Positions 16,108-20,465 of a stretch of DNA of 64,000 nt are shown here, in pieces. Source of the DNA: Flavobacterium lipolyticum (lineage in GTDB: Bacteria > Bacteroidota > Bacteroidia > Flavobacteriales > Flavobacteriaceae); assembly GCF_020905335.1 (NCBI RefSeq), contig NZ_JAJJMN010000001.1:1798001-1862000 (forward strand). Direction: 5' to 3'. The notes under the pieces were generated by a model. That model had not been told where the DNA came from and did no database searches. It was given only the letters and a program-made list of their open reading frames with translations. The position numbers were made by a program, and so were the translations under genes. Every line of letters starts with the position of its first letter. Within the stretch, counting starts at the first letter, position 1.

Positions 16108-17100
16108 TTACAATCTGGCAGGCTCAACCCATTTAAAGATATGAGATTCTGCAGGAATTACAAGTCTTTCAGAAATTCTTGCCATACGAGCTGGTAATTT
16201 CATCAGGTAATCACGCGCTTTCTCTGCTTCGTCTGTCAAATTTGAAATTTTATCAATTTCCCATTTGTTGATTAGCTTTTGCATAATATCAACATAATCG
16301 TTAGCGGTGTATACCCCTATACGTTGTGCTGAATCTGAAAACTGCTCAAAAGCACTGCTTATTTTCTGACCTGATTCTCTTAAAAAGTGCGCCGGCATCA
16401 CGATTTTTTGTTTCATCATGTATTGAAACGCCAACATCATTTCACTTGGATCAACAGCAAAAATACGGGTAACAAACTCGCTGTAAGCATGATGGTGACG
16501 CATTTCGTCGCCTGCAATCATTTTACACATTTTAGACAGTTTGTTATCACCAAATTTCTTTGCCATTTGTGCCACTCTGTTGTGCGACACATAAGTAGCC
16601 AATTCCTGGAAGCTGGTGTACACAAAGTTTTTGTACGGATCAGATCCGGTTCCAATATCAAAACCGTCGTTGATTAAATGCTGAGTAGTCATTTCGATTT
16701 CACGCATGTTTACACGACCGGACAAATACAAGTATTTATTTAAAAGGTCTCCGTGGCGATTTTCTTCTCCGGTCCATTGTCTGATCCATTTCGACCAGCC
16801 ATTTCCACCGTTTTCTATCTGATTGACTCCTTCTACATCCATTAACCATGACTCATATGTTGGCAAAGCTTCTTCAGTGATGGTATCCCCCACTAAAGTT
16901 ACCCAGAAATCATAAGGCAATTCTTTAGCAATTTCACGTAACTCTTTTACCTCCTCAAAGAAATTTTCTCCTTCAGAATTAGGCAAAAAGTCTGACGGCT
17001 GCCAAATTTTTTCCACTGGAATTAAATACTGTTCAACGAAGCTATCCACGTTTTTTTCCAAAAACTGCATTACTTCTAATCTAATGTTTTTTATAGACAT
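16108..17100 (-). CDS. Acyl-ACP desaturase
   Basis: Soluble di-iron enzyme that puts a cis double bond into acyl chains on acyl carrier protein (stearoyl-ACP desaturase family). The two iron-binding motifs are EENRHG at residues 112-117 and DEMRHH at about 197-202, each supplying Glu and His ligands. Other family signs are the aromatic YLSGRVNM stretch and LATYVSHNRVA. Length 330 is normal. The upstream neighbour on the same strand is a 1-acylglycerol-3-phosphate acyltransferase (51 bp gap), so fatty-acid tailoring and phospholipid assembly may be co-transcribed. Confidence 0.94.
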   Translation of the reverse strand: MSIKNIRLEVMQFLEKNVDSFVEQYLIPVEKIWQPSDFLPNSEGENFFEEVKELREIAKELPYDFWVTLVGDTITEEALPTYESWLMDVEGVNQIENGGNGWSKWIRQWTGEENRHGDLLNKYLYLSGRVNMREIEMTTQHLINDGFDIGTGSDPYKNFVYTSFQELATYVSHNRVAQMAKKFGDNKLSKMCKMIAGDEMRHHHAYSEFVTRIFAVDPSEMMLAFQYMMKQKIVMPAHFLRESGQKISSAFEQFSDSAQRIGVYTANDYVDIMQKLINKWEIDKISNLTDEAEKARDYLMKLPARMARISERLVIPAESHIFKWVEPARL

Positions 17101-17150
17101 TACTTATTTAAGATTGGGATTTAAGTTTTCGTTTGTACTACAACAAAAAT

Positions 17151-17891
17151 CTATTTATACTCATTTACTCCTTCTACCACCGCTTTTTCTGTCAAAGCCA
17201 TTAAATCGGCAAAATCATAATCTTTTACGGCCATTGCTTTATGTGCTGTAAAGGTTAAATGATTTCCTAATCCAACCGGAAACATTCCAAAACGAACCAT
17301 TTTCCATGAATTATTGATACTTACCGGCACTACATAAGCAGACGGTGCATATTTACATAAGATTTTTAAACCGCTTTGTGCAAATTCTTTGGGCTTTCCT
17401 GTTTTACTTCTTGTTCCTTCAGGAAAAATTACAGCAGCTCTGGTATTTTTTTCGATATATTCAGACAAGCCTTTGATTACCGGAATCGCTTGTTTAGGGT
17501 CTTTTCGGTCGATTAAGACAGATCCTCCGTGGCGTAAATTAAAAGACACACTCGGAATTCCGCTTCCTAACTCTTTCTTACTTACAAATTTACAATGAAA
17601 TCGTCTAAAGTACCAAATCATTGTTACGATATCGTACATACTTTGGTGATTTGCAACAAAAATGATTGGAACTCCCTTTGGTATATCGGCTACTCCGGTA
17701 ACAGTGTACCTTGTTCCCACCAGATTGGTACATCTTAACAGGAAGAAATTCAGATAATCTACGCTTTTTTTATGCGCCTGGTACCCAAAAACATTCAGGC
17801 AGAACCATTGTATCGGGTGAAATACCGCCAGACAAAAACCAAAACACAAGTAATAAATTACGGAAATGGGGTACGAAATTATCTTTTGCAT
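17151..17891 (-). CDS. plsC: 1-acyl-sn-glycerol-3-phosphate acyltransferase
   Basis: Membrane enzyme that adds the second fatty acid to lysophosphatidate in phospholipid synthesis. The catalytic motif NHQSMYD is at residues 81-87, and the substrate-binding motif FPEGTRS follows at about 156-162. An N-terminal hydrophobic helix anchors it. The reading frame is open further up to an ATG at 17954. That would add 21 hydrophobic residues of poor family fit and run into the duplicated promoter region, so I prefer MQKIISYP at 17891 (246 residues). It is divergent from the zeta-like pair. A second member of the family is at 61862-62611. Confidence 0.9.
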   Translation of the reverse strand: MQKIISYPISVIYYLCFGFCLAVFHPIQWFCLNVFGYQAHKKSVDYLNFFLLRCTNLVGTRYTVTGVADIPKGVPIIFVANHQSMYDIVTMIWYFRRFHCKFVSKKELGSGIPSVSFNLRHGGSVLIDRKDPKQAIPVIKGLSEYIEKNTRAAVIFPEGTRSKTGKPKEFAQSGLKILCKYAPSAYVVPVSINNSWKMVRFGMFPVGLGNHLTFTAHKAMAVKDYDFADLMALTEKAVVEGVNEYK

Positions 17892-17973
17892 GCTTAAAAA
17901 ATTAATGCCCAAAAGTAATAAATAAATATTTAGCGGTATAAAAATTGAAAACAATAACCGTTTTTCTGGTTTA

Positions 17974-18018
17974 ATTGTACCTTTGCCCTAAAATTTGCAA
18001 ATTTTTTCTGAATTAAAT
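17974..18018. repeat. 45-bp direct repeat, left copy (rnpA promoter sequence)
   Basis: Identical to 19119-19163 except for one base (G at 17985, A at 19130). It starts with attgtacctttgccc and ends with ctgaattaaat. The two copies bracket the zeta-like pair exactly. This copy keeps the -7 box TACCTTTG (17978-17985). Confidence 0.92.
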
Positions 18019-18040
18019 AGAGTTCTTACACGTTGTTTAA

Positions 18041-18074
18041 TTGTTTAGAATCAGATAAAAAAATCGTAAATTTG
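18041..18074 (+). promoter_or_regulatory. Putative promoter of the zeta-like pair
   Basis: TAAATTTG at 18067-18074 is an exact -7 element, with TTG at 18041-18043 as a possible -33 (23-bp spacing, at the long end). It lies inside the inserted segment, 26 bp before the first ATG. Confidence 0.45.
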
Positions 18075-18100
18075 ACAATAAACTTCTTTTTAAGTAAGTC

Positions 18101-18370
18101 ATGAGAAATAAGATCGCCCGCTTTGTAATAAAGCAACATAAAGAAAAACTTGGCGCTAATGAAACAGATATTCTAATAAGATCTGCTTCGAGAAGTTCAA
18201 GTTATGCCATTAGAGAATCTAAAGCTTTGGGACTAACTATAAAATCAATATCAGACAGAAAAATAATTGAAAGGCTCCCAAATGGAGAAATTAAGATCAT
18301 TCGAAATCTTCAACAAAAGAAAGATACTGATAAAGGTTTGAAAAAAGGAATGATTTTATGCAGGAAATAA
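18101..18370 (+). CDS. Small basic protein, putative antitoxin partner
   Basis: An 89-residue protein that I do not recognise. It is rich in Lys, Arg and Ser, has no membrane segment, and looks mostly helical (RNKIARFVIKQHKEKLG, then SRSSSYAIRESKALGL). A C-terminal strand, ERLPNGEIKIIR, is followed by a Lys-rich tail. It overlaps the zeta-like gene by 13 bp (18358-18370), typical of toxin-antitoxin pairs where the first gene encodes the antitoxin. It does not resemble the classical epsilon antitoxin. The role is inferred from position only. Confidence 0.7.
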   Translation: MRNKIARFVIKQHKEKLGANETDILIRSASRSSSYAIRESKALGLTIKSISDRKIIERLPNGEIKIIRNLQQKKDTDKGLKKGMILCRK

Positions 18371-19110
18371 AGAAAAGACTGAGAATATTTGCCGGACCGA
18401 ACGGATCTGGAAAGAGCACTCTTTTTGAAGAATTTTCTAAACATTACAATACGGGCTATTTTATAAATGCAGATTACCTCGAAAAGATCTTGCGAACTAA
18501 AGGCTTAATAGATTTAGATTCGTATGAACTAAAATCTTCTCAGAAAGAATTACAAAATTTCTACAAAAAAGAAAACACAAAAACGCTAATAAATACTGCC
18601 AATGAAAAAGGTTTTCAAATATCTCTTGAGATAAAAGAAAACTTTATAGTATCAGTTTCTAAAGATCCTAATAGTTATGAAGGCTCACTTATTTCCTCTT
18701 TTCTAAGAGAAAAACTTCTTAAAGAAAATAAAAGCTTTTGCTTTGAAACGGTTATGAGCCATATTTCAAAACTAGAAGATATTAGTATAGCAAATGCTCT
18801 GGGCTATACTTCATACTTATATTTTGTGTGCATAGACGATCCGGAAGTAAATATCTCTCGTGTTGAAAACAGAGTTCAAAAAGGTGGACACGCCGTTGAC
18901 AGTGAAATTATAAAAAACAGATACAAACGAACTTTAAACAATTTGTTTCCCGCAATCGAAATTTCAAACAAGACCTTCTTATTTGATAATTCTGGCGAAA
19001 AACTCACTTTAATAGCTGAAATAAACAATGGTAATTCATTAAAACTTCATATAAATGAAGAAGATTTTCCAAATTGGTTCAAAGAATTTGTATTAAATCA
19101 CTTCATATAA
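18358..19110 (+). CDS. Zeta-toxin-like P-loop kinase
   Basis: A 250-residue protein of the zeta toxin / AAA-like kinase group. Zeta toxins phosphorylate UDP-N-acetylglucosamine and so poison cell-wall synthesis. Walker A GPNGSGKST is at residues 13-21. NADYLEKIL follows, with the Asp in the place of the zeta catalytic base. FETVMS (about residue 133) and the arginine segment RVENRVQKGGHAV are classic for chromosomal zeta relatives. It is full length with no frameshift. Base composition is noticeably more A+T rich than the neighbours. The pair sits between two copies of the rnpA promoter sequence, so it is an insertion. Toxicity is inference. Confidence 0.85.
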   Translation: MQEIKKRLRIFAGPNGSGKSTLFEEFSKHYNTGYFINADYLEKILRTKGLIDLDSYELKSSQKELQNFYKKENTKTLINTANEKGFQISLEIKENFIVSVSKDPNSYEGSLISSFLREKLLKENKSFCFETVMSHISKLEDISIANALGYTSYLYFVCIDDPEVNISRVENRVQKGGHAVDSEIIKNRYKRTLNNLFPAIEISNKTFLFDNSGEKLTLIAEINNGNSLKLHINEEDFPNWFKEFVLNHFI

Positions 19111-19118
19111 AAACAGCT

Positions 19119-19163
19119 ATTGTACCTTTACCCTAAAATTTGCAAATTTTTTCTGAATTAAAT
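19119..19163. repeat. 45-bp direct repeat, right copy (reaches the rnpA start codon)
   Basis: Right copy of the repeat at 17974-18018. Its last two bases are the first two of the rnpA ATG (19162-19164). The -7 box is TACCTTTA here, one base off TAnnTTTG. Confidence 0.92.
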
Positions 19164-19566
19164 GAACTTCACTTACCCTAAAAATGAACGCTTAAAGAGC
19201 AAGACCACAATAAGTTTACTGTTTTCTGAAGGGAAATCGGTTTCAAAATATCCTTTGCGTTTGGTTTATGCTCCGGCGGAAGAAAATTCACCAGAAAAAA
19301 TCAAAATTGGCGTTTCGGTTTCTAAAAAATACTTCAAAAAAGCCGTAGACCGAAATTACTTCAAACGCGTTCTAAGAGAAACGTACCGACTCAACAAACA
19401 TTTACTTTTGGATAACATTCCACAGCCCTACTCCTTGATGTTTTTTTATCAAACGAAAGACAGACTGCCTTATGAAGAAATCAACACCAAGACCATTCAG
19501 CTGTTTGAAAAATTCCTTCAGCAAGTAAACAAAAGCGCTGATTCTGAAAATAAAACAGAATTGTAA
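19162..19566 (+). CDS. rnpA: Ribonuclease P protein component
   Basis: Protein subunit of RNase P, which with the RNA subunit matures the 5' end of tRNAs. At 134 residues it has the family core: an N-terminal ERLKSKTTISLLFSEGKS, the strand IKIGVSVSKKYFKKAVDRNYFKR with the basic RNR-like motif (here DRNYFKR), and LRETYRLNKH. The start is fixed by the ATG at the end of the 45-bp repeat. The usual neighbour rpmH is not nearby. Its native promoter region has been split by the zeta-like insertion. Confidence 0.95.
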   Translation: MNFTYPKNERLKSKTTISLLFSEGKSVSKYPLRLVYAPAEENSPEKIKIGVSVSKKYFKKAVDRNYFKRVLRETYRLNKHLLLDNIPQPYSLMFFYQTKDRLPYEEINTKTIQLFEKFLQQVNKSADSENKTEL

Positions 19567-19646
19567 TTCGTTTACGACAACTTTATTTATCAAATTATAC
19601 GAAAAATTATAAAAAAATTGTAGTTTTAAATTTAATTTGAAATATT

Positions 19647-20465
19647 ATGCGCTATATTTTCTTTTTATTCTTGCTTTTTTTAGGCTTTTCGAGTTGCAGT
19701 AAAAATGAAGAATCTTCTGCTAATATGAGGATTAGCGCTGTCAAGCTTACTCCAAAAAATGAATCCGCTCCAGCGTCAGATGCACAGTATGACCCTGCTG
19801 CTCCGGAGATTACACAAAAAATTATCAAACAGGCTTCTCTTCGATTTGAAACCAATGATTTAGAAGATACTTTCAAACAAATCCAAACTGCGATTGTTGC
19901 CAATAAAGCCTCCATTCAGAATGATTCTGAAGGCAAAGAATATGACAACATTTACAGAACCTTAACGATTCGCGTTCCCAGTGCAAACTTTGATTCTTTT
20001 ATAAATGCGGTTTCTAAGGGTGTTTCGTACTTTGAACAAAAAGAGATTTCTGCAGAAAATGTTACCGAACAATACATTGACTTAACTTCAAGATTAAACA
20101 CAAAACGCAAACTTGAAGCCCGCTATTTGGAGATTTTACAAAAAGCCACTAAGATTAGTGAAATTCTGGAAATTGAAAAACAGATTTCGGCTATTCGTGA
20201 AGAAATTGAAGCCAAAGAAGGGCAATTGAAATATCTCGAAAGCCGCGTTTCAGAAAGTACTGTAACGATATCATTTTACAAAACCATAGCTCAAAAACAA
20301 GGCGTTAAGATTTCTTATGGTTCTAAAATATGGACTGCTATTCAATCCGGATTTTTCAGCCTGTCCGATTTTTTAATTTCGATCATTAGTATATGGCCGT
20401 TTATAATCGTATTTTGCGTACTTGTCTACTTTATTAGAAAAAGATTTAAAAGAAAAAAAATATAA
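19647..20465 (+). CDS. DUF4349 lipoprotein
   Basis: A 272-residue envelope protein of the DUF4349 family, function unknown. The lipobox is FSSC (residues 14-17). The periplasmic part has the family pattern: ITQKIIKQASLRFETNDLE, YRTLTIRVPSANFDSF, then a long coiled coil (VTEQYIDLTSRLNTKRKLEARYLEIL ... shortened here) through ESRVSESTVTISFY. One C-terminal transmembrane helix (about 245-263) ends in a basic tail, RKRFKRKK. It is therefore anchored at both ends. It leads a run with the S41 protease and OmpA genes (gaps of 2 and 4 bp), so an envelope operon is likely. Confidence 0.88.
   Translation: MRYIFFLFLLFLGFSSCSKNEESSANMRISAVKLTPKNESAPASDAQYDPAAPEITQKIIKQASLRFETNDLEDTFKQIQTAIVANKASIQNDSEGKEYDNIYRTLTIRVPSANFDSFINAVSKGVSYFEQKEISAENVTEQYIDLTSRLNTKRKLEARYLEILQKATKISEILEIEKQISAIREEIEAKEGQLKYLESRVSESTVTISFYKTIAQKQGVKISYGSKIWTAIQSGFFSLSDFLISIISIWPFIIVFCVLVYFIRKRFKRKKI

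Follow-up and report, generated by a model that had tools for sequence, protein, structure and literature searches.

Zeta/PezT toxins phosphorylate UDP-N-acetylglucosamine and are neutralised by a partner. Insertion of a restriction-modification system together with a long target duplication was reportedly described by Nobusato et al. in 2000. In the available portions of two articles on restriction-modification systems, such target duplications are long and variable, on the order of 100 bp (PMC3874152, PMC3031569). Chromosomal toxin-antitoxin (TA) pairs lying between conserved genes are exemplified, again in the accessible parts of the sources, by ccd in the folA-apaH and mazEF in the relA-mazG interval (PMC7167474, PMC7232551), and the former, in the text available, calls the mechanism of their integration unelucidated (PMC7167474).

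The locus analysed here, a zeta-toxin-like gene pair between plsC and rnpA (the latter a core gene of tRNA processing), was noticed in a window of 64,000 nucleotides (the whole stretch of DNA under study, to which all coordinates refer) from Flavobacterium lipolyticum. It is compared below with the corresponding sites of related genomes.

Layout of the plsC-rnpA Locus

A previous inspection of the letters of the window (the sequence-only reading) had claimed that two 45-bp copies identical at 44 of 45 positions bracket an antitoxin/toxin-like pair and that the right copy ends on the start codon of rnpA. Both claims were confirmed (Table 1). The copies (44/45 identity) are spaced 1145 bp apart and form the core of the longest direct repeat in 17000-20200, which comprises 52 nt at 92% identity, and the right copy closes with the first two bases of the rnpA ATG. 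The right copy begins 8 bases downstream of the toxin stop codon (19108-19110), and, apart from the pair, the ORF listing between the copies contains nothing but antisense ORFs of 40-50 aa. The left flank of the left copy runs unbroken into the native plsC-rnpA intergenic region; at the empty sites of G159 and G396, both the left-copy sequence and its left flank are the same as in the window over the compared stretch. Scattering of the 45-mer through the genome, named beforehand as a result that would speak against an insertion, was not the case: with up to three mismatches allowed, the 5.77-Mb genome yielded just two matches, both being the window copies, and none for the reversed control, so that a dispersed repeat was ruled out. 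The flank comparison gave scores of 42 for the window repeat pair and 51 for that of G121; of 5843 control placements, which may still include real repeats, 53 score at least 25 and 27 at least 40.

Table 1: Features of the plsC-rnpA locus in the window.
Feature	Position	Strand	Remarks
plsC-like acyltransferase, divergent neighbour, ORF from upstream TTG	17151..17954	-	Pfam PF01553, 81.8 bits
Left copy of rnpA promoter/leader	17974..18018	+	Box TACCTTTG at 17978-17985
Presumed decayed remnant of rnpA coding start, ~33 nt	18017..18049	+	Left-copy ATG position to ATCAGATA
TAAATTTG, putative module promoter (-7 box)	18067..18074	+	Fit to TAnnTTTG
Antitoxin-like gene, 89 aa	18101..18370	+	Toxin start overlapped by 13 nt
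Zeta-toxin-like P-loop gene, 250 aa	18358..19110	+	Pfam PF06414
Right copy of rnpA promoter/leader	19119..19163	+	Ends on AT of rnpA ATG (19162)
rnpA, RNase P protein component, 134 aa	19162..19566	+	Pfam PF00825, 75.6 bits

Flavobacterial sigma-A promoters carry a -7 box with the consensus TAnnTTTG, as given in the accessible part of PMC9723704. Since TACCTTTG fits this box, we read the 45-bp repeat as promoter and leader. The putative box of the module itself, TAAATTTG, was found in the other six occupied genomes as well. The sole mismatch between the two copies, at 19130 (G to A in the right copy), is the last base of the TACCTTTG box, and G374, a genome conspecific with the window genome (G000), retains the G at the equivalent position. 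Judged by the consensus, the rnpA-proximal copy in the window may be weakened by the loss of this base. A simple terminator scan revealed no terminators in 17900-19700. For the plsC-like ORF, the ATG at 17891 is more likely to be the real start than the upstream TTG.

The Gene Pair

The proposed zeta-toxin-like character of the 250-aa protein is supported at the level of sequence by a match to Pfam PF06414 (Zeta_toxin) of 27.2 bits at a cut-off of 22.3, a weak match in which no individual stretch reaches E 0.001. NCBIfam gave only a P-loop match below threshold, and matches in PADLOC, resembling generic P-loop similarity, were set aside as a system assignment. Across 16 aligned toxin sequences, GPNGSGK (Walker A) and NAD are invariant. 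The structure model of the toxin has a mean pLDDT of 91.4, and a sequence profile search of solved structures returned a single match, a designed amidase (E 0.0046), and no zeta toxin. For the 89-aa protein, no match was obtained in Pfam, NCBIfam (E 0.001) or PADLOC (E 1). Its homologues comprise 35 proteins including itself, and the six with an organism name are all from Flavobacterium (F. pectinovorum, F. panacagri, F. ginsenosidimutans, F. panici, F. hibisci and Flavobacterium sp. H4147).

Over 15 pairwise comparisons, dN/dS amounted to 0.05-0.08 for the toxin and 0.13-0.26 for the antitoxin, and no internal stops were present in the pair across six lineages; these low ratios and intact frames argue that the pair is under purifying selection where it is present. 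A second, more distant toxin-like fragment is found elsewhere in the window genome (G000:C1:3990054-3990287; 35% identity, residues 153-229).

Occurrence of the Pair and Empty Sites

A search for rnpA in 398 genomes of the genus was positive in 94 at a cut-off of E 1e-62; these constitute the clade set, in which the plsC-rnpA gap was measured. The sequence-only reading had predicted relatives with an empty site holding a single 45-bp copy, and exactly this arrangement, with a gap of 92-96 bp and one promoter copy, is present in 72 of the 94 clade genomes. Among them is the nearest relative, G159, whose empty site consists, over the stretch compared, of the left flank of the window, one promoter copy and the right flank of the window. 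The single copy of G159 matches the left copy of the window at 44/45, the differing base lying just outside the repeat. A further 15 of the 94 are free of the pair and have longer gaps of 198-581 bp. The pair itself occupies the site in seven clade genomes, namely G000, G374, G121, G249, G265, G323 and G358, which represent six lineages according to inspection of the trees, and every occupied lineage has a close relative with an empty site. The expectation that the pair is kept at this site despite the possibility of clean loss thus holds patchily, in 7/94 clade genomes, and fails for the 87/94 without the pair.

In the 87 pair-free intervals, no convincing remnant of a decayed pair was detected; six of them gave weak matches of 16-31 nt, the best in G054 (E 5e-4). 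There was also no sign of the gap serving as a site for varied large cargo, all 87 unoccupied gaps being at most 581 bp long. The longer pair-free gaps include those of loci L126, L123, L022, L105, L104, L006, L142, L031, L156, L154 and L153. Several longer gaps carry replaced sequence immediately before the promoter box, and the gap of G052 (L022) contains repeated hairpin-like units in this position.

The toxin search of the 398 genomes gave 32 with a match at E 1e-25. Toxin orthologues at 84-100% identity were those of the seven occupied genomes, every one located at rnpA, and neither rnpA nor plsC was found in the available stretch near the 26 other toxin loci tested. A family-level toxin search at E 1e-45 recovered 4 of 299 genomes, the window genome included, and a scan of named genomes gave nine distant toxin loci.

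Structural Variants and the Presumed Remnant of the rnpA Start

Two near-identical promoter copies are present in G000, G374 and G121, those of G121 being identical (45/45 over the core and 51/51 in the flank comparison). G249 carries two diverged copies (36/45), the left one extending into about the first 26-28 nt of rnpA. G265, G323 and G358 lack the right copy, their rnpA ATG following the toxin stop at a distance of 1-2 bases; short repeats flank the pair in G265 (14 bp) and G323 (12 bp). From the ATG position of the left copy to ATCAGATA, the conserved start of the module, all seven occupied genomes have 33-35 nt. This fragment resembles the start of rnpA significantly in five of the six lineages (5000 letter shuffles; 20 nt of the 33-nt remnant of G323 were used). 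Past nt 12, only G249 (p = 0.0004) and G358 (p = 0.012) still show a significant resemblance, and the fragment of the window itself is not significantly similar (p = 0.13). Taken as a relic of rnpA, the fragment suggests that the original duplication also took in the first 26-33 bases of the coding region and measured about 70 bp or more in total.

On the toxin side, the bases between the stop codon and the right copy are alike in G000 (AAACAGCT), G121 (ACACGGCT) and G249 (AAACGCT). The proposal of an insertion with a long target duplication is supported by the empty sites and by the second bracketed locus described below. One result named beforehand as speaking against it did occur, however, in that G265, G323 and G358 hold the pair without a right copy. 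We read this absence as a secondary loss, because the left copy retains a piece of the rnpA start and because G249 has both copies and a similar toxin-side junction; with three lineages lacking the right copy, the ancestral state of the long form is something that we infer rather than observe. The idea that the pair is tethered to the chromosome by rnpA would gain from these three one-copy genomes.

The copies at rnpA show signs of concerted evolution, as they tend to match within a genome, G249 being an exception. Directly before the left copy, G000 has TTTA as in the empty relatives, and G374 has GCT as before the right copy, which is a direct sign of right-to-left transfer between the copies within one species. 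Aligned to each other, the copies of G121 and of G000 agree at 42/46 positions. In G249, the left copy has more positions in common with the left copy of G121 (42/45) than with the right copy of G249 itself (36/45).

A Second Site Downstream of Gene X

It had been suggested to search for the same kind of pair between long direct repeats at other loci, and such a case was indeed found. Five of 31 toxin-family loci have a flanking direct repeat that scores at least 25 and whose right copy adjoins the toxin stop. Three of these represent the rnpA site; the other two, from G268 and G259, are among 25 loci away from rnpA and share a common site, where a 243-aa gene (gene X) is followed by the pair and then by the repeated 3′ end of gene X with its terminator. 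The repeats are identical at 176/186 positions in G268 and 146/151 in G259, and the 186-mer occurs in G268 as two full copies plus a partial match of about 31 nt. Together with G076, the lengths of the duplication after gene X are 186 bp (G268), 186/185 bp (G076) and 151 bp (G259).

Gene X was found at E 1e-60 in 14 of the 398 genomes, of which the six best were examined. In G360 and G058, gene X and one terminator are directly followed by the next gene, representing single-copy empty sites. G076 has both repeat copies enclosing a pair with a frameshifted antitoxin and a toxin that has lost its middle part; the toxin of G259 is likewise frameshifted. In G337, there was no match to the pair or to the next gene. 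Broken pairs between intact long repeats, as in L258 (G076) and L261 (G259), contrast with the 87 pair-free rnpA gaps and their lack of a convincing decayed pair. Within-genome identity of the repeats is 97.3% in G076 and 94.6% in G268; between these two genomes it is 94.1% for the left and 91.9% for the right copies, with five species-specific and no copy-specific columns. Judged from the aligned copies, within-genome matching at this site is thus clear in two genomes, G076 and G259, and marginal in G268. The duplications at gene X demonstrate that a long target duplication is not peculiar to rnpA, although no more than two sites with it are established; at most of the toxin loci elsewhere than at rnpA, no duplication adjoins the toxin.

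Several toxin homologues (L035, L071/L072, L075, L076, L084) have direct repeats at other distances. That of L076 (G382) is an interrupted repeat of ~130 bp at about -462 and +659 from the toxin, enclosing the toxin pair and a reversed gene that looks helix-turn-helix-like by eye. L039 (G139) has four copies of a hairpin-bearing 66-bp repeat (74-89% identity to the first copy) around small two-gene cassettes, which include a shortened toxin of the zeta-like family. The flank repeat of L077 (G384) was discounted as a target duplication, since it occurs three times in the same locus; in G017, a close relative of G384, homology starts only at the downstream gene.

Origin and Persistence of the Pair at rnpA

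We favour, with a probability of roughly 0.55, an old insertion with a long target duplication, followed by partial matching of the copies by recombination, by clean losses, and, in three lineages, by fusion of the pair with rnpA to form what looks like an operon. A TA-like pair would have entered the start of rnpA long ago, presumably in a single event in an ancestor of this Flavobacterium clade. Promoter, leader and the beginning of the rnpA coding region (roughly its first 26-33 nt), some 70 bp or more, would have been duplicated, so that rnpA retained a complete promoter and start. In the left copy, the promoter part has stayed intact and the adjoining rnpA fragment has decayed, in the window beyond recognition. 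The promoter copies would then have been homogenised by recombination in some lineages, transfer between them being visible in G374 versus G000, and they diverged in G249. In the three lineages with the visible one-copy arrangement, transcription of rnpA presumably depends entirely on promoters upstream of the pair. The absence from most relatives, with no obvious scar, would be due to precise removal by recombination between the repeats or with empty-site DNA from relatives. Its family assignment would make the toxin a P-loop kinase restrained by the 89-aa protein.

Third-position identity between lineages amounts to 58-76% for the module and 76-84% for gyrB plus dnaK; being lower than or similar to that of the two reference genes, it argues that the module copies are not recent arrivals from one another. 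For the species trees, gyrB and dnaK were used with no more than 30 genomes. Two pairs, G000-G121 and G323-G358, recur in the module tree and in the six-genome gyrB+dnaK tree, the latter pair with a support of just 82/86 in the module tree. The positions of G265 and G249 were not resolved in this comparison, nor was the relation of G000 and G121 in the 30-genome gyrB+dnaK tree. With those parts of the gyrB+dnaK tree that are resolved, the module tree is not in conflict. On the local tree (midpoint root), a single gain entails 28 losses, the alternative being six acquisitions, as counted by eye. These 28 losses are the strongest argument against strict vertical descent, and exchange of the locus by homologous recombination would lower their number.

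Such exchange is central to the next explanation, a credible contender of clearly lower probability. According to it, one original insertion was followed by movement of the pair between species as a presence/absence allele by way of plsC and rnpA homology, with empty-site DNA removing it in the same manner, so that the present patchiness would be mostly horizontal. Far fewer losses than the 28 of strict vertical descent would be needed, and the 87 scarless pair-free intervals would be accounted for. It also agrees with G396 and G397, whose neighbours differ between the local and the gyrB+dnaK tree, and with G121 and G249, in which the first 120 nt of rnpA are nearest to genomes other than the closest plsC relative, a hint of recombination there. 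These two are the exception, however. Next to the insert, the flanks are about as similar to those of the closest empty relative as the remainder of the region is, and in G000 and G265 they match it right up to the insert with no visible donor tract; the latter finding and the lack of conflict between the module tree and the resolved parts of the gyrB+dnaK tree speak against a mostly horizontal history.

Repeated entry of a mobile pair at the start of rnpA, as well as downstream of gene X, is rather unlikely. By duplicating the local target each time, repeated insertion would explain why copies match within genomes; in G121 (45/45) and G259 (146/151), the copies are indeed more similar to each other than to the copies of the other genomes in the comparison. 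About six gains, counted by eye, would suffice on the tree, and the ends of the duplication vary, as seen from the 151 versus 186 bp after gene X. Nevertheless, the spacing of 33-35 nt is common to all seven genomes and pieces of the rnpA start are found in 5/6 lineages, module divergence is as large as species divergence, no recombinase was seen between the repeats, and transfer between copies is directly visible in the conspecific genomes. Very improbable is an initial insertion with a short duplication at the rnpA start, as in the form of G265 (14-bp repeats), G323 (12 bp) and G358, i.e., 3/6 lineages, with later gain of the right promoter copy by recombination: G249 and G000/G121 group on opposite sides of the midpoint-rooted module tree and yet all have the right copy and a similar junction, and the gain of a promoter-only copy would be an extra, unexplained step. 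A transposon or an integrative element with att sites finds no support, as the ORFs between the copies include no recombinase and the duplication lengths vary.

Beyond the old insertion with a long target duplication, a broader and more tentative generalisation, in our view doubtful as a whole, is that this flavobacterial TA family persists by duplicating a piece of its neighbour, the re-matched copies keeping a clean exit, and that at rnpA a hostage architecture has formed in three lineages. The pair would there be the sole transcription route to rnpA, so that its deletion together with the promoter would be harmful. Judged from the arrangements found, this architecture would be a product of the loss of the second promoter, the duplicated piece being either a promoter or a 3′ end with terminator.

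Comparison with Known Systems

Within one genus, empty, two-copy, diverged two-copy and one-copy forms of the locus are available, and the second locus exists in intact, broken and empty form. This variety at two loci makes entry, homogenisation, decay and capture of a neighbouring gene directly comparable, and it offers an unusually clear view of TA-like pairs entering, staying in and leaving chromosomes. A testable claim is the predicted expression of rnpA solely via the toxin-pair operon. Our literature search found no TA pair at rnpA, and no TA system with comparable direct repeats and empty sites or with a comparable target site duplication and gene conversion, which is no proof of absence in print.

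With Zeta/PezT (PF06414), the pair shares a profile score over the curated cut-off, the Walker A motif GPNGSGK and a small upstream partner gene; it differs in the weak score of the toxin and in a partner without a profile match in Pfam, NCBIfam and PADLOC. Like ccd and mazEF, as far as the accessible text on these goes, it is a TA-like pair that occupies an interval between conserved genes and is absent from other strains. Unlike the descriptions of ccd and mazEF, which in the portions available (PMC7167474, PMC7232551) contain no mention of a flanking target duplication, the duplication is visible here.

With the restriction-modification insertions, as portrayed in the available parts of the sources, the locus has in common an addiction-type pair and a long, variable target duplication deduced by genome comparison, different targets for related inserts (rnpA and gene X), and the lack of any transposase or recombinase gene seen. 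In contrast to these, the cargo is a zeta-like toxin pair, and the duplicated piece restores a promoter or a 3′ end with terminator to the neighbouring gene. Also unlike them, as far as those parts go, there are signs of concerted evolution, and in three lineages, which have no second copy, rnpA follows the toxin immediately. From this comparison, the locus fits the kind of insertion, with a long target duplication, that is described for restriction-modification systems, its cargo being TA-like. New is the set of forms, i.e., empty, with two matched copies, with two diverged copies, and with one copy and rnpA directly behind the toxin, as are the signs, drawn from aligned repeats, that the copies are being kept alike.
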